A stretch of 53,784 nucleotides of DNA from Oscillospiraceae bacterium. Its GTDB lineage: Bacteria > Bacillota > Clostridia > UMGS1810. The position numbers and the translations under genes are program-made. The notes beneath the pieces are model-generated. The model was not told the DNA's origin. It saw only the letters and a list, made by a program, of their open reading frames with translations, and made no database searches. The stretch is from assembly GCA_015068985.1 (NCBI GenBank), contig SVJL01000005.1, forward strand, positions 1 to 53,784, read 5' to 3'. Position 1 is the first letter of the stretch. Every line of letters starts with the position of its first letter. This document shows positions 25,265 through 47,970 of the stretch, one piece after another.

Positions 25265-26950
25265 GTGGCATACAAATATAATGTAAATGCTATATCCTAT
25301 GTTGGAGATGCACACAATCGAATATATAACTGTTTTTTTGTTGACGGTGTAACACCTGTTGCTGATGGAGTGTGCAATGGTGCAGACATAGAAACAAAAT
25401 GCAAAGGAAAAAAACATTTGTTTTCTGTTTTCTCGGGTAAGTCAGAAATTGACCGTGTGTGTAATCGTCTTGATGATATGTTAACAAAAAAAAGCAGTAA
25501 AAAAATTCGTTCTAAAGTTCAGTTTGAACTAAAAAACGTAATGGAAGAGATTTCCCAAACCTTTTGCAAAAATGATAATGATTCAACAATGTCAACAATA
25601 TACATTGATGGCAACAACGTGTACGCATCGGGACACGGAGATATGAACATTTATAAATTCAGCAAAAAAAGTAACCGTGCAAAAAAAATTGAATTCCCAT
25701 TATATACCCCCCTAAACTACGAAGCAGAATCAAATGTTGCCGTAAAGCTTCGTCAACCCGCACGTGCAAAATGCATCGGTAAAGTTTCATCAGGCGACGA
25801 GTTCCTTTTGGCAGATTCAAATTTGGTTAGTATACTGGGCGATGACATAATTATGAGCACTTTAAAAGAATATGGAAAAAATGCCCCTGCAAAGCTTATT
25901 GAGCTTGCCTCTAATTCTATTAGTGCATATAATCTTACTGCAGTTCACATATGTGCAAAAAGGAGAATGTCGCCGTTGTACTTTATTCTTCCTCTAATCT
26001 TAATTGCAGCATTAGGAACATATTATGCACTTGTGCATATTACACCCCAAAATTTCAAAACAGATTTTTTGAATGGCGAACCAGAAACTACTTCCGTACA
26101 AGCACCAAACACTGCCAACAGCAACAACAATCCAGAGACTTCCCCTCCCAAAGAGGAAAAGCTCGAGACCGACATCCTGCCTGTTCTTGCTCCGCTTTCT
26201 GCAAAACTCGACATTATTGGGAGTGAAGTGACCGGCGAAAAAAGCATAGTTTCTTATTACATTAAAGACCTCTCCACCGGTGAAGTTCTTGAAAACAACA
26301 ACTCATCAATGTCGTCGGCAAGTTTAATAAAACTTTACATTATGGCAGAAATATATCGCCAGATAGATGCACAAGAGATTGATATGACAGAAGAGATTAA
26401 AAAACTTTTGCACGAAATGATAACCAAAAGTGATAATGACGCCAGCAATGAGCTTGCCAAAATTGCCGGCGGAGGAGATATGAAGCTTGGCTTCAAAAAA
26501 ATAACAAATAATGCGAAATCTCTTGGTTGCGTAGACACCATTCAGGAAAATGACCTTCAGGCGGTGAGAACTGAACCTGTGAAAGGTAAAAACACTACAT
26601 CTGTGCGTGATTGCGGATTGCTGCTCGAAATGATATATAACAAAACCTTGGTCAGCGAAGAATATAGCAGCGAAATGCTTGAACTGCTAAAGCAACAAAC
26701 CAGACTCGAAAAGATTCCAAAATACATACGCAACGATGTTGTGGTTGCAAACAAAACCGGCGAAACGACCATTGCTCAAAATGATGTTGGCATTGTTTTT
26801 GTAAAAGACAGACCATACATAATTTGCATTATGATTAATAATTACGAAAATCAGATGGATGAAGCCATGGAAATTATTGCCAAAATGTCGAAAGCAACAT
26901 ATGATTTCTTTATAAATCTGAAGGAGCCGCAAATTTTAAGTGTTCCATAA
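25265..26950 (+). CDS. PP2C-like domain / TM / class A beta-lactamase-fold fusion protein
   Basis: 561 residues from a GTG preceded by GGAGG. Residues 1-230 resemble a PP2C Ser/Thr phosphatase (VADGVCNG, YASGHGDMNIY, FLLADSN), but the last metal site normally DN-x-T reads YNLT, so activity may be lost. A transmembrane helix follows (~236-256), then a Ser/Asn/Pro linker and an extracellular class A beta-lactamase-type domain with S353-L-I-K356, S389-D-N391 and K497-T-G499. No clear omega-loop Glu was found, so a D,D-peptidase-like or sensory role is more likely than drug resistance. The layout suggests a transmembrane link between cell-wall or beta-lactam sensing and cytoplasmic phospho-signalling (inference). 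Monocistronic, with its own terminator. Confidence 0.82.
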   Translation: MAYKYNVNAISYVGDAHNRIYNCFFVDGVTPVADGVCNGADIETKCKGKKHLFSVFSGKSEIDRVCNRLDDMLTKKSSKKIRSKVQFELKNVMEEISQTFCKNDNDSTMSTIYIDGNNVYASGHGDMNIYKFSKKSNRAKKIEFPLYTPLNYEAESNVAVKLRQPARAKCIGKVSSGDEFLLADSNLVSILGDDIIMSTLKEYGKNAPAKLIELASNSISAYNLTAVHICAKRRMSPLYFILPLILIAALGTYYALVHITPQNFKTDFLNGEPETTSVQAPNTANSNNNPETSPPKEEKLETDILPVLAPLSAKLDIIGSEVTGEKSIVSYYIKDLSTGEVLENNNSSMSSASLIKLYIMAEIYRQIDAQEIDMTEEIKKLLHEMITKSDNDASNELAKIAGGGDMKLGFKKITNNAKSLGCVDTIQENDLQAVRTEPVKGKNTTSVRDCGLLLEMIYNKTLVSEEYSSEMLELLKQQTRLEKIPKYIRNDVVVANKTGETTIAQNDVGIVFVKDRPYIICIMINNYENQMDEAMEIIAKMSKATYDFFINLKEPQILSVP

Positions 26951-27005: not shown

Positions 27006-27314
27006 TTAGCCGCAGCAGCAGTCGTTTCTTGTTGGTTCAATATTATCGAAATGACATTTTTCGGGTGGGAAAAACTCATCAATAGGGAAGCTTAATCTGT
27101 CGAAAAGCTCGCAAGGGTTATTGTCGGCAGACTGGATGCAGTCGTTATCGGGAATGCAGAAATCTATTACCGGAATACGAAGCTCAACCTTACGGGTAAG
27201 GCGAACAATTGTGAAAAGACCAATGGTTACATAAAGCTTTTTGCCATCGATTGTGTCAACCAATATGTCGTCAAATACACGGCATATGTCTTCCGGAACA
27301 GAGCTGACATCCAT
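27006..27314 (-). CDS. C-terminal fragment of a split cysteine-rich protein (element-interrupted gene)
   Basis: The first ATG gives 102 residues, but coding sequence clearly continues upstream in frame to 27392, where no start codon exists: 26 further codons read EVVDPICLATKIVDATDNN, then a run of five Cys. There is no ribosome site at the ATG. This is the 3' part of the gene whose 5' part lies at 39402-39854; joining codon 151 there to the GAA at 27392-27390 gives a 279-residue protein. The fragment ends in a Cys-rich tail (NDCCCG) and contains an all-beta stretch (KKLYVTIGLFTIVRL, VELRIPVIDFCIPD). I recall similar uncharacterised proteins in spore-forming Clostridia but cannot verify it. 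A spore coat or late-sporulation product is suspected from the skin-like arrangement. Confidence 0.75.
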   Translation of the reverse strand: MDVSSVPEDICRVFDDILVDTIDGKKLYVTIGLFTIVRLTRKVELRIPVIDFCIPDNDCIQSADNNPCELFDRLSFPIDEFFPPEKCHFDNIEPTRNDCCCG

Positions 27315-27378
27315 CTCGCCACAGCAGCAACAGCAATTGTTATCTGTTGCGTCAACAATCTTTGTGGCAAGGCAAATG

Positions 27379-27404
27379 GGGTCTACAACTTCTGTTTGTG
27401 ACAG
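27379..27404. other. Attachment-site junction, left end of the 12-kb element
   Basis: The 10-bp core TCTGTTTGTG (27391-27400) is repeated directly at 39400-39409. Bases left of the TC dinucleotide (27391-27392) belong to the split gene; bases to the right belong to the element and to the 3' end of the recombinase gene, whose last two codons and stop are taken from the host-gene side. Confidence 0.75.
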
Positions 27405-28243
27405 CTTTTTTCAGATTTTAGCTTTAATATTTGCTGAGTTTGGTTAAACATTCGCTTTGATATTATGGCAAGCTCCGGCCGGATATGAATCATATTCTCC
27501 TTTTCGGGCAGGGTGCGTCTTGTGGCTTCCATAAAATCGAGAGTTTCTGTTTTGTTGTTAACAAGGATACCGCAATACACAGAATTTGAAAGAATACGTC
27601 TCACGGTTTTTGCCTGCCACAACTTTCCGTGTTTTGTGGGAACATTTTTGCAGTTAAGATAGTCTGCAATTTTTCTTATTCCCATATTTTTTGAACTATA
27701 CATTGAAAATATTTTTTTTACAATTTTGCTTTCTGCTTCATTAATTATAAGCTCATATGTTCCTGATTTGTCATAACCGTAAATTGACGGAGGAGTTCTG
27801 CCCTTACCTGCCGAAACCTTTTTGCCAAACATTATTCTTTTTGACAAATTATACGACTCCTCCTGTGCAATTGCCGCAAACATGGTCAGGGCAAATTCGG
27901 ATTCGCCGAGAGTGTCCATATTGCACGACAAAAACCTGACATCTATTCCCCGTGATTTGAGAATACGTATTCCGCTTAAAAAATCAAGAGTGTTTCGGGC
28001 AAAGCGGCTGATGTCTTTGCATATGAGCATATCAAATATTTTGCTTTTACTATCGGTGAGCATATTCAAAAACTCTGTTCGTTTTTTCAGTGCTTTTCCG
28101 CTGATGCCACGGTCTGCATACAATCTGACCAGATTATACCCATGTTTTTTAGCGTATTCTTCAAAAAATGCTTTTTGATTTTCCAAAGAAGAAAGCTGCT
28201 CTTCACTTCCTGTTGAAACTCTGCAATAGGCAGCAATGTTCAT
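27383..28243 (-). CDS. Serine site-specific recombinase of the 12-kb intervening element
   Basis: 286 residues. Resolvase/invertase domain 1-~150 with the catalytic Ser in YCRVSTGSEEQ, the GISGKALKKRTEF loop and DISRFARNTLD; a PF07508-type recombinase domain follows (~165-265; PPSIYGYDKSG, KTVRRILSNSVYCGIL). The zinc ribbon and long coiled coil of 500-residue relatives such as SpoIVCA are absent, so this is a compact form. The gene abuts the left att core and its stop lies in host sequence; after excision the frame would instead end MFVSPS. It should catalyse excision of the element and rejoining of the split gene. Its ribosome site AGGAGG lies inside the 3' arm of a terminator-like hairpin (28249-28284), suggesting tight control. 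Confidence 0.88.
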   Translation of the reverse strand: MNIAAYCRVSTGSEEQLSSLENQKAFFEEYAKKHGYNLVRLYADRGISGKALKKRTEFLNMLTDSKSKIFDMLICKDISRFARNTLDFLSGIRILKSRGIDVRFLSCNMDTLGESEFALTMFAAIAQEESYNLSKRIMFGKKVSAGKGRTPPSIYGYDKSGTYELIINEAESKIVKKIFSMYSSKNMGIRKIADYLNCKNVPTKHGKLWQAKTVRRILSNSVYCGILVNNKTETLDFMEATRRTLPEKENMIHIRPELAIISKRMFNQTQQILKLKSEKSCHKQKL

Positions 28244-28248
28244 ATAAC

Positions 28249-28284
28249 AAAACCTCCTCGCTTCAATATATGCGGGGAGGTTTT
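28249..28284 (-). terminator. Terminator-like hairpin that overlaps the recombinase ribosome site
   Basis: A 13-bp stem (28272-28284 with 28249-28261, one mismatch) then TTTTGTTAT, just after the SLH gene stop. The descending arm contains GCGAGGAGG, the ribosome site of the recombinase gene nine bases before its ATG. Transcripts from the S-layer operon would mostly end here, and those reading through would have the site paired. Confidence 0.75.
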
Positions 28285-28294
28285 AGTTTAGTTA

Positions 28295-29869
28295 TTATAT
28301 GGGAAGCAGTGCGGTTGGATCATCTATGCCAAACATAATTTTGAGAAGTTCATCAACAAGATATGACGGAACCTCTGTTGCCAATTTGGAATAAAATGCA
28401 GATTGTTGCTCTTTTGTCAGCTTGTTATACAGAGCTTTTGCACTTGCAACGTCGGAAGAATATGTTACTGAAACATAATCTTCAACATAAATCGCCTTTC
28501 CTGCATCGGCATCGGCAAGGGTTTTGTTGATTGTGTCAACAGCTATTGTCATTATAGGACGTTCGTTTTCGTCCAATCTGAGTCTGGGTCTTCCGGTTTC
28601 GTCAACGGCATTAACATATTCAACAATTTTTTTTAGCTTCGCCACAACTTCATTTTGAAGTTCCTGATCGAAAGCATCGTCCGGTTCCTGAGTGTCAGAA
28701 CCAGTGTTATCGTCGGGATTAACAACGGGAGTGTCGTCTATCTCGCCAAGCACTGCCTCAAAGTTATATTCTCTGCTTACTGTTACAACAGTTTTTGCTT
28801 TATAGGTTCTGCCTTTAACAGTGTCTTTCCAATAAAGGAAATTAGGGTATTCAGCTTTATCGGGTTCGGGAAGAGTAAATCTGCTTCCGTAGGATATTGT
28901 CTGACTTATATTTACACCTGCGCCTTTCACGGTTATGGTGTATTCCTTGAGTATTGTGTCTTCGGAACCTGTGTTGTCGCCTGAACCTGTGTTGCCACCT
29001 GAACCGGTGTTGTCGCCCGAGCCTGTGTTGCCGCCCGAACCGGTGTTGTCGCCCGAGCCTGTGTTGTCGCCTGAGCCTGTGTTGTCGCCCGAGCCTGTGT
29101 TGTCACCCGAGCCTGTGTTGTCACCCGAGCCTGTGTTGTCACCTGAACCGGAACTACCGCCGGAGCCCGAACCACCACCGGGTCTGCTACCGCCGGAGCT
29201 ACCACCGGGTCTACTGCCGCCGGAACCCGAACCTCCAACCGATACATTACCGCCAACTGACGGTGTGACAGTTGTTTGAACAAAGTTGGCAAGGAGCATA
29301 GAAAGCTCGCCTCTCTTCATAGGCTCTGTGGCTCTGAATGTGTTGCCGTTTTCAAGACTTATAAGCATATTGCCAACAACCAATTTAACGTATCCCTCTG
29401 CCCAAGGAGAAACGCTATCTGCTATTGTTACGGGCACGCCAAGGTCATAAAGACCCGCCACCCTTGCAACTATTGCACACGCCTGCTCACGGGTTACGGG
29501 AGAATCTCCACGGAACGTGCCATCTTCAAATCCGTTGATATAGCCGGCTTTTTTTGCAATTTTCACGTGAGAATAATACCATTTATCTGCAGTGACATCA
29601 CTGAAAGCCGTTTCATCCTCAAGGGTATATTTATATATGTTGTTAACCATCTTACAAAGCTCAGCCCTTGTTACACCACGATTGGGAGCAAAGGTACCGT
29701 CGCCGTTGCCGTTTATGATGCCTGCTGTAGCAAGCTTATAGATTGCCTGCCCCTGAGCGGTTGTTGCATCAACATCTGTGAACTTAAGGTTTTCTTCTGC
29801 CATTACGGGAACAACAGAATATGCAACGGTTACCATTATGGCAAGAAGCATTGCTATTATTTTTTTCAT
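28295..29869 (-). CDS. SLH-domain surface protein with GSGDNT repeats
   Basis: 524 residues from MKKIIAMLLAIMVTVAYS (signal peptide to about VMAE); an in-frame ATG at 29962 would put 31 residues before the signal and is rejected. Three SLH domains (~25-210: FTDVDATTAQGQAIYKLA, FSDVTADKWYYSHVKIA, VSPWAEGYVKLVVGNML) anchor it to cell-wall polymers. Then comes a Gly/Ser/Arg/Pro linker and about ten GSGDNT/GSGGNT hexapeptide repeats, an InlB B-repeat-like beta domain (~365-430, TITVKGAGVNISQTISYGS, FLYWKDTVKGRTY), and an acidic helical C-terminal domain. It is located within the recombinase element, 82 bp after the giant SLH gene. Confidence 0.87.
   Translation of the reverse strand: MKKIIAMLLAIMVTVAYSVVPVMAEENLKFTDVDATTAQGQAIYKLATAGIINGNGDGTFAPNRGVTRAELCKMVNNIYKYTLEDETAFSDVTADKWYYSHVKIAKKAGYINGFEDGTFRGDSPVTREQACAIVARVAGLYDLGVPVTIADSVSPWAEGYVKLVVGNMLISLENGNTFRATEPMKRGELSMLLANFVQTTVTPSVGGNVSVGGSGSGGSRPGGSSGGSRPGGGSGSGGSSGSGDNTGSGDNTGSGDNTGSGDNTGSGDNTGSGDNTGSGGNTGSGDNTGSGGNTGSGDNTGSEDTILKEYTITVKGAGVNISQTISYGSRFTLPEPDKAEYPNFLYWKDTVKGRTYKAKTVVTVSREYNFEAVLGEIDDTPVVNPDDNTGSDTQEPDDAFDQELQNEVVAKLKKIVEYVNAVDETGRPRLRLDENERPIMTIAVDTINKTLADADAGKAIYVEDYVSVTYSSDVASAKALYNKLTKEQQSAFYSKLATEVPSYLVDELLKIMFGIDDPTALLPI
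28961..29155. repeat. 18-bp tandem repeats encoding GSGDNT
   Basis: About ten and a half near-identical 18-bp units within the SLH gene, differing mainly at third codon positions and a D/G switch. The repeat keeps all six frames open, which explains long spurious open frames on both strands. Copy number is likely to vary by slippage. Confidence 0.9.
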
Positions 29870-29905
29870 TCTGTCACCATACCTTTCTTTGAATTGTTCA
29901 TTTGC

Positions 29906-29939
29906 AAGAATAGGCAGAATTTTATTTCTGCCTATTCTT
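29906..29939. repeat. Perfect 14-bp hairpin between the two SLH genes
   Basis: AAGAATAGGCAGAA (29906-29919) pairs exactly with 29926-29939 around a 6-nt loop. It lies in the 82-bp gap of the SLH operon and lacks a T-run on the minus strand, so it looks more like an mRNA processing or stability element than a terminator. Confidence 0.65.
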
Positions 29940-29951
29940 CTGGATCTTAAA

Positions 29952-32900
29952 TTATTCAGCATTTATTGAACGTTTGATTTCAACAAGATTGCCGTCAAAA
30001 GCAATTTCAAAGCAATTACCGTCATCATAACGTTTAACAGATGCAGTCTTACCTTCAATAATCACATGATAAGTATTGTCGTCAATTCTCTTAACACGCA
30101 ATGTCTTACCCTTGAATGAAATCTCATATGTGTTTTCATCAATTTGTGTAATCTTGTCGGTTATGTCACCAACCTCATCAAACTTACCGGAGGCTATCTC
30201 ATATGCTTTGTTAAACAAATCGAAAGCTTCATCTGTTGTGATATTAATTTTGGTAAATGCCTTATTAACTACTTTGCGAAGTTTTGCATAATCCTCTGAA
30301 CCGTACTCTTTATAGAACGGACTTGTTTTATACCAGTCGAGGAGCTTATCTATCTGAGAACCGAATTTTTCATAAAGCTTTTTCTCTATGGTAAGAGTTA
30401 CTTTATTATTGAATCTGTCAGGTATCTCTCCTGTTTCGGCATATTCATAAAGCATTTCAGCAAGAAGGTTTGCATATTTAACTGCAAGATCTTCATAGTT
30501 TAATACAAGCTCATCAAGTTCTTCTTCAGTAAGCTCTTCGGTGTACCAAACAAGTGCATCGTCACCTATGATTGCAAGCTTAAGCATAAGATCATAGTAG
30601 TATCTGTAGTCTCTTATTGCATATCCACTGCCCACACCGGTGTCGGGAACAAAAAGATTGTCTGCTTCGGTGAGTTTGATGAGTTCCTGCAAATAGGGGT
30701 TCTCGCTATAGTAGAAATTCTGCTGTGCTCTATTGTCTACAAGCTCTACAAAGCGGTCACGGAGAGGAACATAAACATCATCAACAGGATTTACAACAAA
30801 GTTGATTCCGCAAGGCACAAGTGCCGTCTGACCATTTGCAATATCGCTGCGTGCAAAATCAATCTTACGAAGAATTTCGTTGTATGCCGAAGCATAAATT
30901 GCTTCAAGTTTTTCACGAGGATAAATCTTGAACACCTGCTCGGGCACTTTTTCAATGAGGGTTTCAAAGCTATATTCTTTAACCTTCATTTCAAATGCTG
31001 TGAGAATGAATTCTGTTAAAGGTTCAACCTCAAACTCTTCATCATTGATAAGTTGATCAACCATTTTGTCTAGAGTATCCTGATAGATTGTTTTGATAAC
31101 ATCATCTATTGTGGGATCAAGCTGACCAATCTCATCCAGATGGTCAATCACATAATCTTCGTACTCTTCACACTTATGGAAATCATTGTTATCAATTATC
31201 CTATTAACAGATTCTTCAATAATAGCATTGCGATTTGCCTTGTTGGTTTCAAAATCACTGTAGTCGGCATCGGTAATTATTTGTTGACACAATTGCTTGA
31301 TGTGAACCATAGATCCTGAATCAACATCTACCGCACCAACAAATGCATTTGTGAAAAGCTCTTTTACCTCTTCTTTTTCTGCTTTGCTGTTGTTTGCTTT
31401 GGTTTCATAATAATCGAGAATAGAATCCTTGAGTTCTTCATTGTTGCCAAGTGATTCTTTGGCATTATCTACAATGTAGTCTTCAAGCTCAGCTTCTCCT
31501 ATTATCTGAGAGAAACGAAGGAGAACTTCCAGATTCAAAATGTTATTATTTTCATCTATTCCTTCTTTTTCTCTGATTTTATCAAGACCTTTGTCACCAA
31601 TTTTCTCTATCTGCTCCTGCAAGTTGGTCTGAAGTAGCGTTTCGCTGTCGGAGAATGCATCCCACAAGAGGTTTTTGATAGTGTCGGCTGCTCTTGTGCC
31701 TGTTGTTACGGTGTTGCCTGAACCGTCTGTAATTTTAACTGTGGGTTCATAATATCTCTCAAATGTAAATCCAAGACCTATCTTGTCAACATAGGTATAG
31801 ATGCTAAGCTTAGGTGATCTTTCCTCTACAGTCAGCACTCCGTTTTCGTCAACGATTTCGGATGTAACCTTTACTTCGTGAGTAAACTTCTCCCATTTTT
31901 GGGTTGTGGGATTATAGAACCAACCAAATTTTACTTTATGGGTGAATACATTTTCATTTGAATACAATGTTGGAGATATTCTTTCGTTCTTCACATATCC
32001 GTCAACAGTGCCCGAACCCGGAATCTTATCTTCGGGAACAGATGTTCCTGCGGGAACCTGCTCGGAATGTATTAAATGTCCTGCACTGCGGAATTCAACA
32101 TTATAGACAATGGTTGTTTCCCAAACAGCAGTGAATATCCATCCATTTTCGGGGTCGAAGCCTTCAATAACAACTTCCTGACCGGGATTGTAGGTGTTGC
32201 CGTTAAAGCTCCACTCCTTGAGAATGTCGAACTCATTTTCAACATCTTCGGCAGAGGGAAGGGTTATTGCTGCACCATACACGACGGATGTTACCGGCGA
32301 ATATTCTTCGCTGAAGCCACCGCCATTTGTGAAGTCGTAGGAAATTGCTATGGTGTTGCGGTCGTAATAAACTTTGAGTTCTAAGGTTTCATCGGCATAA
32401 ACCACACCGGTGAGAGTGCTCGCGGTGCTGTTATGAGTAAAACCGGTGATAATGGGAACGTTTGTGACATTAACCGTTTTACCGTCGATGGCATATTTGG
32501 TTTCGGTAAGGTCTTCGTCTGCCTCATATCCGCTCCGGTCAACCGTTTGCATATAATACTTGATATAATATGCATAGAGCTTAGACCATACAGGTTCAAC
32601 CACAATATCATCTTCGGTTTCGATGGTTATTTTTTCACCAAATGATTTTTCTACGCCATCAACAAGCCAGCCGGTGAGCTCATAATCGTCTTTGGTGAGG
32701 GAACCATATCCGGGAAGTTCAAACGTGTCGCCAAACTCTTTTATGCCGTCGTCAAGCTCAACACCCGGAGTAAGACTGGAGCCTACAATATCGAATTTAA
32801 CATTAACCTTAACACGGTCATAATAGAGCTTAAGCACAAGGCTTCCATCTTCTTCAACAGTGCCCGAAGCTTCACTCATCATATCTTGGTTATGAACAAA

Positions 32901-35900
32901 GCCATAATAATCTTCAGGCTCTGCAGTGACCTCTTTGCCCGGAAGAACGTCTGTTTCAACGGTATCTTCTTTAAACAAATAATCGGACACATTGCCGGAT
33001 GTTCCGCCAACCTTGAGCTGATAGTGCTTGATTGTGTAGCTTGTTTTGCCTTTTTCGTTCCAGATTGCAACGATGGAAATGTCGGAAACTTCTGTGATTT
33101 CCACTATATCACCGGGGTCGTGTGCAGTGTTGCCAATCTGCCAACCGGCAAGGGTGTAGCCTTCACGTTTAACATCCGATATTTTCGGAAGCCTGATTTC
33201 TTCGCCAAACTGGAATTCACCGTCTCGTGGTGCGGTTACAAATGATGCATCGGTAACACCGGTGCCAAAGGAATAGGTCACGTTTATTACTTCACGATAG
33301 TAATATACTTTAAGAACCAGTGACTTTCCGCTTACGGCAGTACCGCTCATTTCGGTTTTGAACTCTTCATCCTCATTCCATATGAAACCTTTAATCTGTT
33401 TTACCTTTGCATTAACCACAGTGTCGGCTTCTACAGTAAACTCTTCGGTTTCATCATCGAGACGAGAATAGCTCAGCTTGTTGTCTTTATTCTTGTTGTC
33501 GTTAACTGCCCAGTGTTCTACGGTGTAGGTCACATCGGGGAGTTTTTCCCACACAGGCTCAATTGACGCACCGTCTGTGCCAAGCACAAACTTTTCGCCG
33601 GGTTTATATTCTTTTTCGTTTGCAGTGCCCTTGTTTACAACCCAGCCGATGAGTTTGTGAGATTTTTTGGTTACCTGCTGATCTGTGGGAAGGGTAATTT
33701 CGGTTTCAAAATGAATTGCTTCTCCCTGAATAGGTGTAAAGCCATCAGCAAAGCTTTCGTCTGCAGCGAGCTTGTATGCAACGCTATATGAGTTACGGTC
33801 ATAGTAGAGCTTGAGCTCAATTGTCTCGTTAGCAACAATTGTGCCCTTCGGGTTACTGATGTCCTCATTTGGAGTGAAGCCCTCGTAGGTTTTGAAATCT
33901 ACAGAAACTTCTTTGCCGGCATTCTCACTGGTTCCCGAACCTGCTTCAACTGATTCACCATAGTGTGCAACATTTCCGGGTGTTCCGCCAATTTTCAGCT
34001 TATAGTGAGCGTAGGTATAGTTACCTTTGCCTTGTTCAAGCCAGATTGGAATTACCTCAACCACTTGATCAACATAAAAATCAATTATAACAGTTGCACC
34101 CGGCTCGTAGTTTTTGCCGTTTACAGTCCAGCCGGTAAGAGTGTTATTCTCTTTAACAACGTTGTCTGCACCGGGGAGAGTGATTTCATCACCAAAATAT
34201 TTTTCGCCAAAATCATCTATATAGTTATCTGCAAAGCTCCAACCATCAGTAATGGTTGTAAATTCGAGCATTTTACGGTTATAGTACACCTTGAGCACAA
34301 GAGAACCGTCGGCTGCAACCTTACCGGTCTCATCTCCAGCCTGTGTTGCATCACGTTCAAAACCGGTATAGTCTTTAGGCTCTGCACTTACCCAAGTGTC
34401 GGGAATTGCCGTTTTTTCTTCGGTCTCTGCTTTTGCATATGTTCTGTCAACTGTACCTGTATACTTATCAAGCTTTTCGTGATAACGCTCTATGGTATAT
34501 TTTACAGGTTCAAGTTCTTCCCACACAGCGGTGATGGTAACAGTGCCTTCTGCAACAATTTCGTATTTTGCTCCGGGAGCATATTCGGTGCCGTCTATTT
34601 TCCAGGCTTTAAGCTTGTTGGAGTCTTTGCGGACTGCATCTGCAGTGGGCAGGGTAAGTGTGTAGCCAAAGAGTTTATCCGCTTTATCTATCGGACTTAC
34701 CTCTGTGCCGCCGTCAAGCTCATAGCTTAAGGAAACAGATTTACGGTCATAATAAACCTCTAAAACAAGGCCGCCGTTTCCTGTGTTACCCTTTAACTTA
34801 CTCTTTCCATCGTTGAAAGAGAAACCATATATCTTATCTTCAAAATCTTCCACTTTCAACTCAACATCGGTATTAACAAACACGTTGTTAATAATGTCAC
34901 TGTCGGTTTCTTTGTAGGTTACTCCGTCAAGCTCTAATTGATATGTTTTTATGGTATAGGAGGTTTTTCCAACCTCTGTCCAGATAGCTTCGATTTCATA
35001 TGTTACATCTTCGGTAATTGTAACTTTTTCACCGGGAGCATATGATTTCTCGTTTTCTGTGCCTTTGTTGACAATCCATCCGGATAGAGTGTAATGCTCT
35101 TTGGTAACATCAGACTCGCCGGGAAGTTTGATTTCGGCTCCAAACTGTTTTGTGCCCTGGTCTAATGTGTAACCATCAGAAAGAATACCACCGTCAATGT
35201 TGATAGCCACATTAACATTGTTACGGGTGTAGTATACTTCAAGCACAAGCTTGCCGTCTTTGGTTACAATGCCTTTTTCACGGTCGGCAAATGCGCCATT
35301 ATGAGTAAAGCCAGTGTAGGTTTTGATGTCGGCTTGTACTTCCGAGTCAACCTCGCCTTTTTTGATATCGGTTTCTTTTACTTCATAGCTATTGGTATCG
35401 TCGAGGTTGGTTGCATTGAGCTTGGCAACATAATACTTAACCGTATAATCTACAGGATCATATTTTTTCCATACAGGAACAATGTTCACGTCGGCTTCAG
35501 TGCTGATTGTGTAGCTTGAACCCGGTTCACATTCAACACCATTCACTTTCCATTTGTCGAGGTAGTGTCCGGCTTTATGAACCTGACCATCTGTTGGCAA
35601 ATAAATTGATGAGCCAAAACGCATTGCTTCACCCTGCGGAAGCGAAACCTTATCATCAGTTATAGCACCGCCATCCATGTTGTGAGTTACAGTGACGGTT
35701 TTGCGGTCATAATACAATTTCAGGATAAGATTGCCGTCTGCAGTGATTGTGCCTGAAAGATTACTGTCTGATTCATTTAAATCAAAGCCTATGATAGTCT
35801 CGGGAGTTACTTTTGCCTCTTTTCCAATCTCATCTGTGTAGAAATCACCGGATTCCAATTTGTAATCGTCATTTTCTACATTTTGATGATATATTTCTAC

Positions 35901-38117
35901 TTTATATTTTGCAGTGCCTGCTGATTTTGGCAACCATCTTGCAACAATTGTGTAACTTTCAGGCGTTGTGTCGCCATCCTTTGCACCAATTGTTATTGTG
36001 TATCCAATATCTTTCGGAGCGCCGTTAACCAACCATCCGGCAAGTGTATAGTTTTCTTTTGTTACTTTATCTTCACCGGGAAGAGTGATTGTTGCACCGT
36101 ATTGCATATCGCAATCATCAAAGCCTGTTCCGGTGCCTCCGTCGAGGTCATAGTCTACTGCAAGGGTTTTTAATGCATAATACAGCTTAATAACAAGAGA
36201 GCCATCAGCTTTAATTTCACCGGTTGTGGGTTCGCCCAATTCGTCATTGTACACCTCATAGCCTTCCTTAAGCTTCGATGTAACCGTTGGACGACCTCCA
36301 ATCTCTCCCTTGTCTGTTACAGTTGCAACTTCGTCTTTTACATAATCCTCTCTATTTTCACGGTTACCGCCAAGAGGGAGGTAATAATATTCAACGGTGT
36401 AGTCTGCATATTCGGTGTCTGACCAAACTGCTTCAACTTCAATATTGCCGGTTATTTCTGTTGATTCATCAAAGGGTTTGGTTTTGTCGTCAGAATATAC
36501 CCATCCCTTAAAGCTGAAATCACCGTCGCCTTTCCACACCGGGTCAGGGGGCATATTGTCGCCAAGAGTCCAGCCTTTAACTATTTTTATCTCTTCTTTA
36601 TCACTCGTACCATTTTTGAGAACAAATGTAACTTTCCAGTATTCGCTGGCAATAATTTCCATTGGTCCGGTTACGACAGTTGCCTCTGTTACAATTTTGT
36701 TGGTGGATTTATCATAGAAAACCTTATCAGGATAAAGGTCCATATCAAATCCGCCAAGCTCACCGCTACCGATTTTTTCATTCCAATAGTATTTTTTGGT
36801 TATGGTCTGCGTGTCGCTGATTTTAAAGGTAACAACATATGGATCAATAGTATAATATAAGTTGAAGGTTGTGCCGCTCGCAGTTATTCTTTTATCTTCG
36901 AGCTCACTCATGCTTTCGTTTAGAGTGTAGCCATCAATTGATATTTTTTCGGGTGCTACCCATGTACCCTCTTTGTATTTCTTTTTTGAAACCACGGTTT
37001 CATAGGGCTTATCTTCATATCCGCTTCTGTCTTTCTTCTGGCGGTAGTGATATGTTTTAAAGGAATATTCTTTGGTGGTGGAGCCTCCTCCGCCACCGCC
37101 ACCACCGCCTCCGCCGCCTCCGCCACCACCGGAGGGAGGTGTTACAGGCTGAACGGGAGTTACAGATTCGCCGATGAATGTTGCTTTTGTGATTTCACGG
37201 ATGCCCTTAAAAGGTTCTTCTGAGCGATAGTTATCGAAGTGGACAATTCCGTTAACGTCTTTAACAACAACAATTTCGCCAACGGTTGTGTTGGTGAGCT
37301 TTACAGATTGTTCACCGCCTCGGGCAAGAAGTCTGCCTTTGATTGTGACATTATTAAGCACAACTGTGCCATTGCCAACACCGTCACCGATGATGAGGTC
37401 ACCGTTTATTGTAACGTCACTGAGCGTCACCCCGCTTGTGCGGATAAGGCTTGAAGCGGAACCTGAATGGCTGAAGGTTGATGCTGTGGTGTAGTAGGTT
37501 TTGATAATGTTGTGCATTATCTGAGCAAACTCTTCACGTGTGATATTTGCTTTGGGGTTGAGGTTGCCGTTCTGATCACCGTTTATGTATTTTTTTTGCG
37601 AAAGGATTGCCGCATAGGGTTTTGCCCAATCGGCAACAGTGTTGCCGTCGGGGTGATTACCCAGAGCAGAAAAATCCTGAGTTTCTAAAACCAGAGATCT
37701 TGCAACAACCGCAAAAACCTCTTCACGGGAAATGTAGGCATTGGGTCTCATGGTACCGCCGCCATCACCCTGAAATGTTTGCATATTAACCGCTTTGGCA
37801 ATTTCGGTATAGAACCAGTCTGACGATGAAACGTCATAGAAAGCCGATATGTCGGCTGTTTTGGTTGCACCAAATGCTCTGTTTATTATTGTTGCCATTT
37901 CGGCACGGGTAAGATTGCCTTGCGGAGCAATTGTATTCTCTGTTCGACCGTTTAAAAGGCCGTTGTCAACTGCTGCAGTCATCGCTTCTTTTGACCAGCC
38001 GGTTGGAAAGTCAACAAAATTCGATGTGTCCGCCGCAAAGATGCCCGGAACCATCGACAGAATCATTGTTACACAAACTAATAATGCTGTCGCGCTTCTC
38101 CATAATTTTCTTTTCAT
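29952..38117 (-). CDS. Giant SLH surface protein with tandem MucBP-like/InlB B-repeat modules
   Basis: About 2721 residues from MKRKLWRSATALLVC, with GGGAGG nine bases upstream; signal peptide ends near FAAD. Three SLH domains (~27-215) are followed by a beta-rich stretch, a 13-Gly run near 340, then two InlB-type beta repeats (~375-565). Nine two-part modules of ~160 residues follow (~565-2000): a MucBP-like half (YTVEYYYLPLGG, KGEIGGR, DGSLVIKLYY) and an InlB B half (DYDLDGG, GATITLPGEDKV, LAGWLVNG). A long acidic helical region (~2090-2650) and a short repeat-like tail (KRIDDNTYHVIIEGKTASV) end it. No LPxTG; anchoring is by SLH. A surface adhesin or S-layer scaffold is likely. It is cargo of the intervening element. 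Confidence 0.88.
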   Translation of the reverse strand: MKRKLWRSATALLVCVTMILSMVPGIFAADTSNFVDFPTGWSKEAMTAAVDNGLLNGRTENTIAPQGNLTRAEMATIINRAFGATKTADISAFYDVSSSDWFYTEIAKAVNMQTFQGDGGGTMRPNAYISREEVFAVVARSLVLETQDFSALGNHPDGNTVADWAKPYAAILSQKKYINGDQNGNLNPKANITREEFAQIMHNIIKTYYTTASTFSHSGSASSLIRTSGVTLSDVTINGDLIIGDGVGNGTVVLNNVTIKGRLLARGGEQSVKLTNTTVGEIVVVKDVNGIVHFDNYRSEEPFKGIREITKATFIGESVTPVQPVTPPSGGGGGGGGGGGGGGGGSTTKEYSFKTYHYRQKKDRSGYEDKPYETVVSKKKYKEGTWVAPEKISIDGYTLNESMSELEDKRITASGTTFNLYYTIDPYVVTFKISDTQTITKKYYWNEKIGSGELGGFDMDLYPDKVFYDKSTNKIVTEATVVTGPMEIIASEYWKVTFVLKNGTSDKEEIKIVKGWTLGDNMPPDPVWKGDGDFSFKGWVYSDDKTKPFDESTEITGNIEVEAVWSDTEYADYTVEYYYLPLGGNRENREDYVKDEVATVTDKGEIGGRPTVTSKLKEGYEVYNDELGEPTTGEIKADGSLVIKLYYALKTLAVDYDLDGGTGTGFDDCDMQYGATITLPGEDKVTKENYTLAGWLVNGAPKDIGYTITIGAKDGDTTPESYTIVARWLPKSAGTAKYKVEIYHQNVENDDYKLESGDFYTDEIGKEAKVTPETIIGFDLNESDSNLSGTITADGNLILKLYYDRKTVTVTHNMDGGAITDDKVSLPQGEAMRFGSSIYLPTDGQVHKAGHYLDKWKVNGVECEPGSSYTISTEADVNIVPVWKKYDPVDYTVKYYVAKLNATNLDDTNSYEVKETDIKKGEVDSEVQADIKTYTGFTHNGAFADREKGIVTKDGKLVLEVYYTRNNVNVAINIDGGILSDGYTLDQGTKQFGAEIKLPGESDVTKEHYTLSGWIVNKGTENEKSYAPGEKVTITEDVTYEIEAIWTEVGKTSYTIKTYQLELDGVTYKETDSDIINNVFVNTDVELKVEDFEDKIYGFSFNDGKSKLKGNTGNGGLVLEVYYDRKSVSLSYELDGGTEVSPIDKADKLFGYTLTLPTADAVRKDSNKLKAWKIDGTEYAPGAKYEIVAEGTVTITAVWEELEPVKYTIERYHEKLDKYTGTVDRTYAKAETEEKTAIPDTWVSAEPKDYTGFERDATQAGDETGKVAADGSLVLKVYYNRKMLEFTTITDGWSFADNYIDDFGEKYFGDEITLPGADNVVKENNTLTGWTVNGKNYEPGATVIIDFYVDQVVEVIPIWLEQGKGNYTYAHYKLKIGGTPGNVAHYGESVEAGSGTSENAGKEVSVDFKTYEGFTPNEDISNPKGTIVANETIELKLYYDRNSYSVAYKLAADESFADGFTPIQGEAIHFETEITLPTDQQVTKKSHKLIGWVVNKGTANEKEYKPGEKFVLGTDGASIEPVWEKLPDVTYTVEHWAVNDNKNKDNKLSYSRLDDETEEFTVEADTVVNAKVKQIKGFIWNEDEEFKTEMSGTAVSGKSLVLKVYYYREVINVTYSFGTGVTDASFVTAPRDGEFQFGEEIRLPKISDVKREGYTLAGWQIGNTAHDPGDIVEITEVSDISIVAIWNEKGKTSYTIKHYQLKVGGTSGNVSDYLFKEDTVETDVLPGKEVTAEPEDYYGFVHNQDMMSEASGTVEEDGSLVLKLYYDRVKVNVKFDIVGSSLTPGVELDDGIKEFGDTFELPGYGSLTKDDYELTGWLVDGVEKSFGEKITIETEDDIVVEPVWSKLYAYYIKYYMQTVDRSGYEADEDLTETKYAIDGKTVNVTNVPIITGFTHNSTASTLTGVVYADETLELKVYYDRNTIAISYDFTNGGGFSEEYSPVTSVVYGAAITLPSAEDVENEFDILKEWSFNGNTYNPGQEVVIEGFDPENGWIFTAVWETTIVYNVEFRSAGHLIHSEQVPAGTSVPEDKIPGSGTVDGYVKNERISPTLYSNENVFTHKVKFGWFYNPTTQKWEKFTHEVKVTSEIVDENGVLTVEERSPKLSIYTYVDKIGLGFTFERYYEPTVKITDGSGNTVTTGTRAADTIKNLLWDAFSDSETLLQTNLQEQIEKIGDKGLDKIREKEGIDENNNILNLEVLLRFSQIIGEAELEDYIVDNAKESLGNNEELKDSILDYYETKANNSKAEKEEVKELFTNAFVGAVDVDSGSMVHIKQLCQQIITDADYSDFETNKANRNAIIEESVNRIIDNNDFHKCEEYEDYVIDHLDEIGQLDPTIDDVIKTIYQDTLDKMVDQLINDEEFEVEPLTEFILTAFEMKVKEYSFETLIEKVPEQVFKIYPREKLEAIYASAYNEILRKIDFARSDIANGQTALVPCGINFVVNPVDDVYVPLRDRFVELVDNRAQQNFYYSENPYLQELIKLTEADNLFVPDTGVGSGYAIRDYRYYYDLMLKLAIIGDDALVWYTEELTEEELDELVLNYEDLAVKYANLLAEMLYEYAETGEIPDRFNNKVTLTIEKKLYEKFGSQIDKLLDWYKTSPFYKEYGSEDYAKLRKVVNKAFTKINITTDEAFDLFNKAYEIASGKFDEVGDITDKITQIDENTYEISFKGKTLRVKRIDDNTYHVIIEGKTASVKRYDDGNCFEIAFDGNLVEIKRSINAE
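32110..36425. repeat. Nine tandem ~480-bp coding modules (MucBP-like + InlB B-repeat)
   Basis: Each module encodes a half ending in LKLYYDR or similar and a half ending in a GW-x-VNG plus AVW/PVW motif. Protein-level similarity is obvious while the DNA has diverged, so the array is old and not recently amplified. Confidence 0.8.
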
Positions 38118-38136
38118 TGTTGTTTTCCTCCCTGCA

Positions 38137-39222
38137 TTAACCAAGGTTTAAGTACTGAGCTTTTTGCAAACTCTTTTCATTACGATAAGCACTATCTATT
38201 TTATCAACCAGACTGGTATCACCGCCTGAAGCTGAAAGCTGCGAACGAAGATCAGACAAGATTTGCGCCATCTGTGCATCACACTGTGCTTCCAAAGCAG
38301 TCGCCCGAGGATACAAACTGGAAATTATATCCTTTATACCTGACGCCCTCTGGTCTTCAGGCAACGCATAATAGGCAGACACCGCCTGATTATATAAAGC
38401 ATCCAACTGAGCAAGCATGCTTGATTTGAGTACATACACCCGGGCAATACTTGCTGAAACATCTGATGAACTTGAAGAATTTGGTTTATCCTGCGGAGTT
38501 GAATTTCCTGAATTGGCAACCGTTCCGTTTGAAGCGCTGTTATCAACTGTAGGGGTATTGCTGGCTATGCTTGAGCCTATGCTAGACCCAATACTTGATC
38601 CGACATCAGAGGCAGAACCGTTTGACTGAGACCTATTGGCTTCTGATTTGGTTTCGGTTTTTTCTTTAGCAGGTGTTGGTTTTTTTGTGCTCGATTTTTC
38701 TGCACTTGATTCTTTGGCACTTGATTCTTTGGCACCTGATTCTTTAGCACTTGATTCTTTAGCACTTGATTCTTTAGCACTTGTTTCTTTAGCGCTTGAT
38801 TCTTTTTTGACAGCTTCTTTTCTTTCTTCCTTTAACTGTTCAGCTTTTTCTATACTGATTTTTTCACCGGTTTCTGAGTCTACCAGTGCACCATCATCGG
38901 AAAGATCAAGCTTTTTGCCAAACATATCATCAACAGTTATTTGTTCGGTAAGCATAGACATAAGCTCTTCATCATCTATAATACCTTCCTGATATAACTT
39001 TTCTTCCAGTGGTGTTGTTGCATGAACAGAATATTCAGGATTATCATTAAGGAATTTGTTTAGTTCCTCATTGTTTTTTTCTGTCATTTGCTCTATGTCT
39101 GACTCTGAATACTTCCACCAATAATACACTGCTTTTATATTATCAAACTGCCACCATACTACAATAGCGGCGACGAATATGACAACTGCCAAAACAATTA
39201 AAATGATTCTTGATTTTTTCAT
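38137..39222 (-). CDS. Membrane-anchored Ser/Lys-rich protein with KESSA repeats
   Basis: 361 residues, not recognised as a family. An N-terminal uncleaved-type helix (~5-24, IILIVLAVVIFVAAIVVWW) anchors it with the bulk outside. Residues 40-135 are acidic and helical; ~140-180 are nine KESSA-like pentapeptides; ~180-265 are Ser/Asn/Thr/Gly low-complexity including GSSIGSSIGSSI; the C-terminal ~95 residues (VLKSSMLAQLDALYNQAVSA) form a helical, possibly coiled-coil domain. It is the first gene of the element's operon, 19 bp upstream of the giant SLH gene, behind a strong sigma-A promoter. A wall-spanning spacer or an S-layer assembly partner is a reasonable guess. Confidence 0.75.
   Translation of the reverse strand: MKKSRIILIVLAVVIFVAAIVVWWQFDNIKAVYYWWKYSESDIEQMTEKNNEELNKFLNDNPEYSVHATTPLEEKLYQEGIIDDEELMSMLTEQITVDDMFGKKLDLSDDGALVDSETGEKISIEKAEQLKEERKEAVKKESSAKETSAKESSAKESSAKESGAKESSAKESSAEKSSTKKPTPAKEKTETKSEANRSQSNGSASDVGSSIGSSIGSSIASNTPTVDNSASNGTVANSGNSTPQDKPNSSSSSDVSASIARVYVLKSSMLAQLDALYNQAVSAYYALPEDQRASGIKDIISSLYPRATALEAQCDAQMAQILSDLRSQLSASGGDTSLVDKIDSAYRNEKSLQKAQYLNLG
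38695..38806. repeat. 15-bp tandem repeats encoding KESSA
   Basis: About seven to eight 15-bp units (TCTTTAGCACTTGAT on the plus strand) with few changes, a substrate for slippage that would lengthen or shorten the exposed spacer by five residues per step. Confidence 0.85.
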
Positions 39223-39306
39223 AATATGTAATCACCACTCATCAAAAATTTTCGTTAAATCATTCAAATGGACAGACTAACCCATAATTAAGATTATACA
39301 TACTAT

Positions 39307-39335
39307 ATTGTATACTTTATCTTTGAAAATGTCAA
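39307..39335 (-). promoter_or_regulatory. Sigma-A promoter of the S-layer cargo operon
   Basis: Minus strand TTGACA (39330-39335), 17-bp spacer, TACAAT (39307-39312), 85 bp before the first cargo gene and inside the element. It makes cargo expression independent of the split gene. Confidence 0.8.
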
Positions 39336-39350
39336 GTAAATATATCATAT

Positions 39351-39854
39351 TTACATAAATTGTAATCTTAACGCATTGCTTAACTTGGTGACACAAACAT
39401 CTGTTTGTGCCACAGGAAGATTATTCTTTTGCCAAAGCTGAATGTCGGCACTTTCTTCTTTAAATTTTGAACTGAATGTTTTTGCGTTTCCTTCCGAGCC
39501 GAAAAGAATAACTTTTTTGTCGTAGGTTGCAATACCTTCAACCTGTGCAGGTCTTCCAAGGCCTGTGAAAACATCGAGCGTTATGCGGAAGAAGAATTTG
39601 AGGTCTACCGAATAGTAACCACGGTTAAATGCAACCGGTTCAACATCGGAGTATATCCAGATAATTTCTGCCTTGCGGCATCTTATGCTTGTGGCTCTGT
39701 CCACCAGATTCTGACCGCACTCTGTGAGATATACTCTTAAGTTTTCGATACATTCCTTATCACGGCACGAGTCATACACTTTTTTTGTCTGAATGCACAC
39801 CTGTTCAGAGCAAATGTTACTGTTGTTATTGCAGCAATTTACTCTATCACTCAT
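39351..39854 (-). CDS. N-terminal part of the split cysteine-rich protein
   Basis: As it stands 167 residues; GGAGG lies eight bases before the ATG. Codons 1-151 (39854-39402) are true gene sequence; the last 16 codons (DVCVTKLSNALRLQFM) are read from the element end and are artificial. The N-terminus is Cys-rich (CCNNNSNICSEQVCIQTKK), followed by KVYDSCRDKECIENLRVYLT, a Cys/Arg helix and a beta-rich segment (SVDLKFFFRITLDVFTGLG, KKVILFGSEGNAKTF). The 3' continuation is at 27392-27006. A sigma-K-like promoter candidate precedes it. The joined 279-residue protein has over 20 cysteines in clusters at both ends, as in coat or cross-linked proteins. Confidence 0.8.
   Translation of the reverse strand: MSDRVNCCNNNSNICSEQVCIQTKKVYDSCRDKECIENLRVYLTECGQNLVDRATSIRCRKAEIIWIYSDVEPVAFNRGYYSVDLKFFFRITLDVFTGLGRPAQVEGIATYDKKVILFGSEGNAKTFSSKFKEESADIQLWQKNNLPVAQTDVCVTKLSNALRLQFM
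39388..39413. other. Attachment-site junction, right end of the 12-kb element
   Basis: A 12-bp inverted repeat with one mismatch, GTGACACAAACA and TGTTTGTGCCAC, surrounds the TC dinucleotide at 39400-39401, as expected of a serine recombinase site with a two-base crossover. Bases right of TC are host gene, bases left are element. It contains the direct-repeat core TCTGTTTGTG. Confidence 0.75.
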
Positions 39855-39906: not shown

Positions 39907-39935
39907 TATAATATGTTTGAAAATCTGTTTTGGTG
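39907..39935 (-). promoter_or_regulatory. Sigma-K-like promoter candidate of the split gene
   Basis: Minus strand CACC (39932-39935), 16 bp, then CATATTATA (39907-39915), fitting the mother-cell sigma-K pattern AC-N16-CATAnnnTA known from B. subtilis. The expected start site would leave a leader of about 45 nt. No sigma-A promoter was seen in the same place. The motif is short, so chance matches are possible. Confidence 0.4.
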
Positions 39936-47199: not shown

Positions 47200-47970
47200 A
47201 TGATAAACAAGGTAGAAATTTGCGGAGTAAACACATCTAAACTTCCGGTGCTTTCAAACGATGAAAAGCTTGCACTGTTTGACCGTATAAAAAAAGGGGA
47301 TAAAGAAGCAAGAAGCGAATTTATAAACGGAAATTTAAGACTTGTGCTGTCTGTTATACAAAAGTTTTCGGGCAGAGGTGAGAATGCAGACGACCTTTTT
47401 CAGGTGGGCTGCATCGGACTTATGAAATCGGTCGACAATTTTGATCTTAGTCAGAACGTGAAATTTTCGACCTATGCAGTGCCTATGATAATTGGTGAAA
47501 TAAGAAGATACCTGAGAGACAACAACTCCATAAGAGTGAGCCGCTCACTCCGTGACACAGCCTACAAAGCCCTTGGTGCAAAAGAGAGACTTATGGCAAA
47601 AAACGAGAGTGAACCAACCATTGATGAAATTGCAAAAGAGCTTGGCATGGAAAAGGAAGATGTTGTTTTTGCTCTGGATGCAATTCAGGAGCCTGTGTCG
47701 CTTTTTGAGCCGGTATATAACGACGGTACCGATGCAATTTTTGTTATGGATCAGCTAAGCGACGAAAAAAGCATTGACGAGAACTGGCTTGAAGAAATAT
47801 CGCTTAAAGAGGCAATGAGAAAGCTTTCGGGCAGAGAAAAACACATTATTAATCTGCGATTCTACAAAGGCAGAACTCAGATGGAAGTGGCAAAAGAGCT
47901 GGGCATTAGTCAGGCACAGGTGTCGCGATTAGAAAAAAGTGCACTTGGTCATATGAAAAAGAATATGTGA
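47200..47970 (+). CDS. sigG: Forespore RNA polymerase sigma factor SigG
   Basis: 256 residues, normal length. The N-terminal motif VEICGVNTSKLPVLSNDEK is diagnostic of SigG and sets it apart from SigF. Region 2 (NGNLRLVLSVIQKFSGRGE, DDLFQVGCIGLMKSVDNFDL, KFSTYAVPMIIGEIRRYLR), region 3 (IRVSRSLRDTAYKALGAKE) and region 4 (RTQMEVAKELGISQAQVSRLEK) are complete. It drives late forespore transcription after engulfment and shows that the organism forms endospores. In B. subtilis the gene follows spoIIGA-sigE; here it stands alone after the HexNAc kinase gene. GGGGG is seven bases before the start. Confidence 0.95.
   Translation: MINKVEICGVNTSKLPVLSNDEKLALFDRIKKGDKEARSEFINGNLRLVLSVIQKFSGRGENADDLFQVGCIGLMKSVDNFDLSQNVKFSTYAVPMIIGEIRRYLRDNNSIRVSRSLRDTAYKALGAKERLMAKNESEPTIDEIAKELGMEKEDVVFALDAIQEPVSLFEPVYNDGTDAIFVMDQLSDEKSIDENWLEEISLKEAMRKLSGREKHIINLRFYKGRTQMEVAKELGISQAQVSRLEKSALGHMKKNM

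Follow-up and report, generated by a model that had tools for sequence, protein, structure and literature searches.

How can a protein be made from a gene whose two halves lie kilobases apart, and is the DNA between them able to leave? This question is raised by contig SVJL01000005.1 of a spore-forming Oscillospiraceae bacterium of the gut (GenBank assembly GCA_015068985.1; GTDB lineage Bacillota, Clostridia, UMGS1810). The whole stretch analysed, 53,784 bp, is further referred to as the window. On its minus strand, codons 1–151 of a cysteine-rich gene (the A half, ending in NNLPVAQT) are separated by exactly 12,009 bp from a continuation that has no start at its head (the B half, beginning with EVVDPICLATK). 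From sequence comparison we consider it highly probable that the intervening DNA is a skin-type element residing in a conserved clostridial gene and excised by its own recombinase, most likely late in the mother cell.

The split gene and its junctions

The locus consists of the following features.

39402–39854, minus strand: A half, codons 1–151; the interrupted frame continues to a stop at 39351
39400–39409, minus strand: A-side core CACAAACAGA, with GA at 39401–39400; the element arm TGTTTGTGTCAC comes next
27393–39401, minus strand: intervening element of 12,009 bp, delimited by junction alignment
27383–28243, minus strand: serine recombinase of 286 amino acids with Resolvase and Recombinase domains; the frame crosses the attachment site
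27391–27400, minus strand: B-side core CACAAACAGA, with GA at 27392–27391; the element arm CTGTCACAAACA stands before it
27006–27392, minus strand: B half, 128 codons and a stop; the first ATG is codon 27

An initial annotation, made from the window alone, had placed the two halves on one strand with this gap between them, a 10-bp core at both junctions and a recombinase gene at one of them, and had predicted an in-frame join. All of these points were reproduced. A skin-type element should leave a whole, in-frame open reading frame (ORF) after precise excision, carry a site-specific recombinase gene near one end and have a short identical core at both ends. Here, crossover at GA (bases 1–2 of a conserved Glu codon) gives an ORF of 279 codons without a stop, in which NNLPVAQT is followed directly by EVVDPICLATK and which aligns with intact homologues. 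The recombinase ORF runs through the B-side junction. The window contains exactly two copies of the core CACAAACAGA (plus strand, TCTGTTTGTG), one at each junction, and GA is present on both sides at the crossover in all 17 loci compared. The 10-mer by itself is weak evidence, given that two matches to TCTGTTTGTG were obtained in 3 of 100 window shuffles. Since it could recur by chance, the case rests on comparison with other genomes.

Intact and split homologues

A match was found in 39 of the 60 relatives, and homologues encoded by one ORF span the join; that of G005, from the same genus, has 68% identity. Twenty one-piece homologues align end to end with the joined 279-residue protein. A relative is encoded at 530 loci of named genomes, the best ones mostly in metagenome-assembled genomes of gut Clostridia; no homologue of the gene was found in plasmid records. 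The intact DNA of G005, GTGGCACAAATTGAAGTTATAGACCCC, equals the predicted join of its split congeners G001 and G004 apart from point changes, and contains no scar. The full-length homologues on which the initial annotation had made its reading depend are therefore at hand: alignment across the join is common, and where relatives have the gene split, the break falls at the identical codon and a related recombinase lies beside the B half.

The codon at which the window gene is split was labelled S4. Among the relatives, S4 splits were found in G001, G002 (B side only), G003 (A side only, at a contig end), G004, G007, G009, G013, G048 and G049, and in the class-wide sample, in G062, G085, G086, G129, G150, G185, G202, G252, G281 and G290, so that with the window there are at least 20 such genomes in five families. 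A recombinase gene usually adjoins the join. The element measures 1,381 bp in G085, 12,009 bp in the window and about 20 kb in G290; in G062, where the gene halves lie on two contigs, it is probably larger than about 20 kb. In the 60 relatives and the genome of the window itself, close homologues of the recombinase (E ≤ 1e-88) occur solely in S4-split genomes (nine of ten, the exception being the incomplete assembly G003) and in no genome with an intact gene. Close relatives of the recombinase were present in nine other genomes, and none of the seven checked for adjacency abuts the Cys-rich gene. In G009 and G013 (L040, L042) the recombinase gene has the opposite orientation, and it is the 5' end that faces the B half.

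Distances between host genes and distances between recombinases are correlated (Mantel r 0.82; 0 of 5,000 permutations). Split and intact states require 10 changes on the tree, or at least seven if only well-supported branches are counted. The best fit to these data is vertical inheritance over a long time, with the element lost precisely on repeated occasions; repeated gain is a possible alternative history.

The ends of each element, although kilobases apart, co-vary as expected for two half-sites of one attP. When the left arm is compared with the reverse-complemented right arm, 12.2 of 18 positions agree within genomes, versus 8.7 for shuffled partners; the within-genome value was reached in none of 50,000 partner shuffles, and likewise never in a set thinned to 12. 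The reconstructed sites are GCTGTCACAAACA-GA-TGTTTGTGACAGC for G001 and GCTGTCACACACA-GA-AGTGTGTGACAGC for G007.

Judged from substitution patterns, purifying selection acts strongly on the A half, the B half and the recombinase. The ratio of nonsynonymous to synonymous substitution rates (dN/dS), where computable, is 0 to about 0.2 for the two halves in split genomes and 0.035–0.14 for the recombinase, and the reading frames remain open in split genomes. These data, as well as the co-variation of the end palindromes within genomes, disfavor the explanation that the gene is dead, a pseudogene disrupted by an element no longer able to leave. The window recombinase does lack the zinc ribbon and coiled coil, and the assembly contains no excised form, as a dead locus would have it; nevertheless, we regard this explanation as very improbable.

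No ATG is present anywhere in the B half in 10 of the 18 split loci, and that of G150 has no ATG, GTG or TTG over 129 codons. Being constrained yet devoid of a start codon, the B half must be expressed as a fusion. The same observation bears on the idea that the halves are made as two polypeptides assembling without DNA joining. The 5' half retains a promoter and a start, and the 3' half in the window could begin at the ATG of its codon 27; most 3' halves have no ATG, however, and in the f51 group the first 12 codons of the B half change mostly synonymously (101 synonymous versus 26 other changes). We give this idea hardly any credence.

The recombinase and the setting of the proposed excision

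The window recombinase contains the Resolvase catalytic domain (PF00239, E 1.4e-30), whose active-site Ser10 is invariant in 16 sequences, and the Recombinase domain (PF07508, E 8.5e-24). The initial annotation had placed the element among those excised by SpoIVCA-type enzymes. The assignment to serine recombinases holds, but the protein is not of the normal SpoIVCA type, as it ends before the zinc ribbon and coiled coil; these are absent from the other short S4 forms too. The S4 recombinases of G013, G048, G049 and G129 run on past this point into a C-terminal part, Cys pairs included, of the zinc-ribbon/coiled-coil type, and the frames of G062 and G290 are likewise long. The short form requires at least two changes on the recombinase tree and may have arisen more than once.

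The LI integrase deprived of its coiled coil performs attL × attR excision without a directionality factor and loses integration (PMC3783163). Because both the zinc ribbon and the coiled coil are absent, we infer by analogy that the short recombinases are excision-only, and that the window enzyme would be controlled by its expression and not by a directionality factor. No recombination directionality factor was recognised in the window. The content of the G085 element, which codes solely for a GAF-domain protein and the recombinase, is consistent with excision-only activity. One candidate control feature lies just upstream of the recombinase gene.

28246–28288, minus strand: hairpin in the RNA (−18.4 kcal/mol, z −5.25); the recombinase Shine–Dalgarno sequence lies in its 3' arm

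A strong hairpin occupies this place in 7 of the 10 elements folded (z −2.65 to −7.1), with the Shine–Dalgarno sequence within the 3' arm in six of them, the window included (farther upstream in G007). It may block translation of the recombinase from read-through transcripts. A hairpin over the recombinase Shine–Dalgarno sequence is seen at the same place in L043, L153, L154, L155 and L161.

The host gene has a promoter of its own.

39908–39934, minus strand: sigma-K-like promoter AC-N17-CATATTAT of the interrupted gene

The motif AC-N16/17-CATAnnnT precedes the gene in 16 of 18 loci, versus 0.47 expected (maximum 4 in 2,000 shuffles); sigma-K promoters of C. difficile have a −35 AC and a CATA-type −10 element (PMC3789822). 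SigG is encoded in the window at 47200–47967, and a sigK match above the cut-off is located elsewhere in the same genome. Together, the promoter, sigG and sigK fit a late mother-cell gene. The initial annotation had suggested a coat or late-sporulation gene; the late-sporulation part agrees with these data. The sigK match (G000:C57:2907-3530) is incomplete at its end and contains a TAG; the contig, the assembly or a further interruption may account for this.

Of the 279 residues of the joined product 22 are Cys, and the product belongs to no family in Pfam or NCBIfam. Sequence matches in PDB (retinol-binding protein 2, best E 0.007) were marginal, covered part of the first half only and were treated as chance. 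The AlphaFold model, built with 60 sequences, has a mean predicted local distance difference test score of 67.6, and none of the PDB folds matched it at E ≤ 0.001; hence no function was drawn from structure. The product is probably a spore-surface protein. It resembles CsxA, the exosporium lattice protein of Clostridium sporogenes (PMC4942563), in size and Cys content (299 residues and 25 Cys in CsxA); unlike CsxA, the present family includes Cys-poor members. The csxA gene has a conserved divergent partner (PMC7333573), and a divergent gene of 456–478 amino acids is also seen upstream of the homologue in four genomes (L242, L243, L246, L247).

We propose that the recombinase encoded at the B-side end would recombine both attachment sites at the GA dinucleotide, releasing the element as a circle and fusing the halves into the gene for the 279-residue protein. 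This would most likely take place in the mother cell late in sporulation. Since mother-cell loss is terminal, loss of the element there would cost the lineage nothing. Vegetative cells would retain the element, and its surface-protein cargo could be expressed in them from a sigma-A-like promoter. As the gene is cut in relatives at the same codon or at five others, rebuilding by DNA rearrangement would be needed before the protein is made.

Excision might also be real and yet not tied to terminal differentiation; the element would then act as a reversible switch that leaves and re-enters the gene during growth (active lysogeny). The intact genes of the close relatives G005 and G008 amount to precise loss in heritable lineages, and the yin element of C. 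botulinum is excised in part of the culture at all time points (PMC10747680). On the other hand, under its sigma-K-like promoter the gene would be of use only at a late stage of the mother cell, a recombinase without the coiled coil should not reintegrate (PMC3783163), and the assemblies are uniformly split. We consider a reversible switch unlikely.

Several observations weigh against programmed excision in the mother cell, the explanation that we prefer. The excised junction was seen in none of the split assemblies. A sporulation promoter common to the recombinases, including the sigma-K type, was sought, and none was consistent. The spoIVA gene was not found in this 83% complete assembly, though it is present in the congeners G002 and G003. 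Synonymous divergence (dS) is saturated in several within-genus pairs. Finally, deletion of the zinc-ribbon domain weakens DNA binding by the LI integrase about 25-fold (PMC3783163), and by analogy the natural truncation might cripple the enzyme, though purifying selection acts on it.

Further split sites, cargo and known systems

Inspection of incomplete matches revealed five more split sites, S1–S3, S5 and S6 (loci L204, L205/L162, L206/L163, L207/L208, L209/L210/L160 and L224–L241); where both sides could be read, the joins are in frame. S1, between YDSCR and DKDCLEN, is split in G282 and G237, and its right side alone was found in G025 and G109; it is also split in ten IMG/VR contigs, with a recombinase just upstream of the break in eight. 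S2 lies between WVFSDV and EPVPFN (G089, G253, G237), S3 between TLAV and FTGVGRP (G086), and S5 between KECVGST and DDSPC (G282). S6, near codon 178, is represented by the left side only in five IMG/VR contigs. These five break codons adjoin other recombinases. A DnaB-like helicase of the phage replication type beside an S1 junction, and tape-measure and endolysin matches on an S6 contig, point to prophages among the elements at S1 and S6.

In G282 (S1 and S5), G237 (S1 and S2), G086 (S3 and S4) and one IMG/VR contig, L240 (S1 and S4), the gene is apparently in three pieces. Such genes are likely, not proven, because the pieces are often on different contigs and G237 has a second partial copy of the gene. 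A strong homologue (E ≤ 1e-40) is present in 134 well-covered genomes of the class sample; in 19 of these the gene is demonstrably split, in 15 at S4 and in four (G089, G237, G253, G282) elsewhere. On balance we favor the view that a single spore-surface gene of Clostridia serves as a hub for programmed rearrangements. Six of its codons would have been colonised independently by prophages and recombinase elements, with three pieces and hence two necessary excisions in some genomes, and in one lineage this would have led to miniature, vertically inherited, excision-only elements that carry ordinary host genes and whose recombinase has repeatedly lost its zinc ribbon and coiled coil.

Between the recombinase and the A half, the window element carries the following cargo.

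28295–29962, minus strand: SLH-domain protein, 555 amino acids
29952–38144, minus strand: SLH protein of 2,730 amino acids with List_Bact_rpt repeats
38137–39222, minus strand: protein of 361 amino acids with an N-terminal membrane segment and an Ala/Lys/Glu/Ser-rich repeat
39307–39335, minus strand: sigma-A-like promoter TTGACA-N17-TACAAT, read from the sequence, just within the element and before the cargo

Similar sigma-A-like motifs are visible in L037 and L039. No phage genes were recognised in the window element. The S4 element of G048 carries a nitrite/sulphite-reductase-type protein and FecCD transport, and GAF (Pfam), HMA-like and HAD-like proteins are carried in f51, the latter two recognised by reading the sequences. 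Thus other S4 elements bear different ordinary genes, and the cargo does not define the element; it may be captured host genes or a relic. The 361-residue protein and the large SLH protein had been considered as defining the element, and this was dropped, as their homologues adjoin the uninterrupted gene in G012 and G008 (L047, L049). In G001 and G004, where the gene halves are on different contigs, repetitive SLH cargo of the 2,730-residue type is on the A-side contig. Beside the B half, 25265–26950 encodes a protein in which an N-terminal domain and a membrane segment are fused to a domain resembling class A beta-lactamases, with a score under the curated cut-off.

The closest parallel is skin in sigK of Bacillus subtilis and Clostridioides difficile (PMC5025042), a serine-recombinase element in a sporulation ORF that is joined in frame by precise excision. 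Here, in contrast, the target is a Cys-rich family, the element has no recognised phage genes or identified directionality factor, and the recombinase is truncated before the zinc ribbon. The gin element in gerE of Bacillus cereus (PMC5595907) is likewise non-phage, with a serine recombinase and a short shared core, but it is 28.6 kb long and has three recombinases and an extra factor, GirX, whereas the window element has 12 kb and one recombinase, and those of some relatives are 1.4–2.4 kb. SPbeta in spsM (PMC4191935) and vfbin in spoVFB, vrin in spoVR and yin in yabG (PMC10747680) consist of phage DNA, or DNA derived from it, that interrupts mother-cell genes and is removed when the cells sporulate; one element per gene is reported for them, versus six sites in one gene here, apparently two at once in some genomes. 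Cyanobacterial interruption elements (nifD, hupL and others; PMC4874684) also bear recombinases, are lost on terminal differentiation and may be several per gene (up to four in nifD), but they reside in heterocyst genes of a different phylum and not in a spore gene. Two properties go beyond skin: six split codons with different recombinase elements, apparently including prophages, and the absence of the zinc ribbon and coiled coil from the recombinase of the window and of several relatives, with elements down to 1.4 kb.

Literature searches did not return the Cys-rich gene as a known target of an intervening element. To the few sporulation genes for which rebuilding by DNA excision is known, a widespread new target would be added. 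Because no Pfam or NCBIfam model exists and the gene is in pieces in 19 of 134 genomes, automatic gene calling will yield fragments or a pseudogene. A natural series leads from prophage at one site, through elements whose recombinase has its full length, to elements of 1.4 kb in which it is truncated. The domestication of phage integration into a dedicated excision device can thereby be tested directly, and the short recombinases would be natural examples of excision-only serine recombinases.

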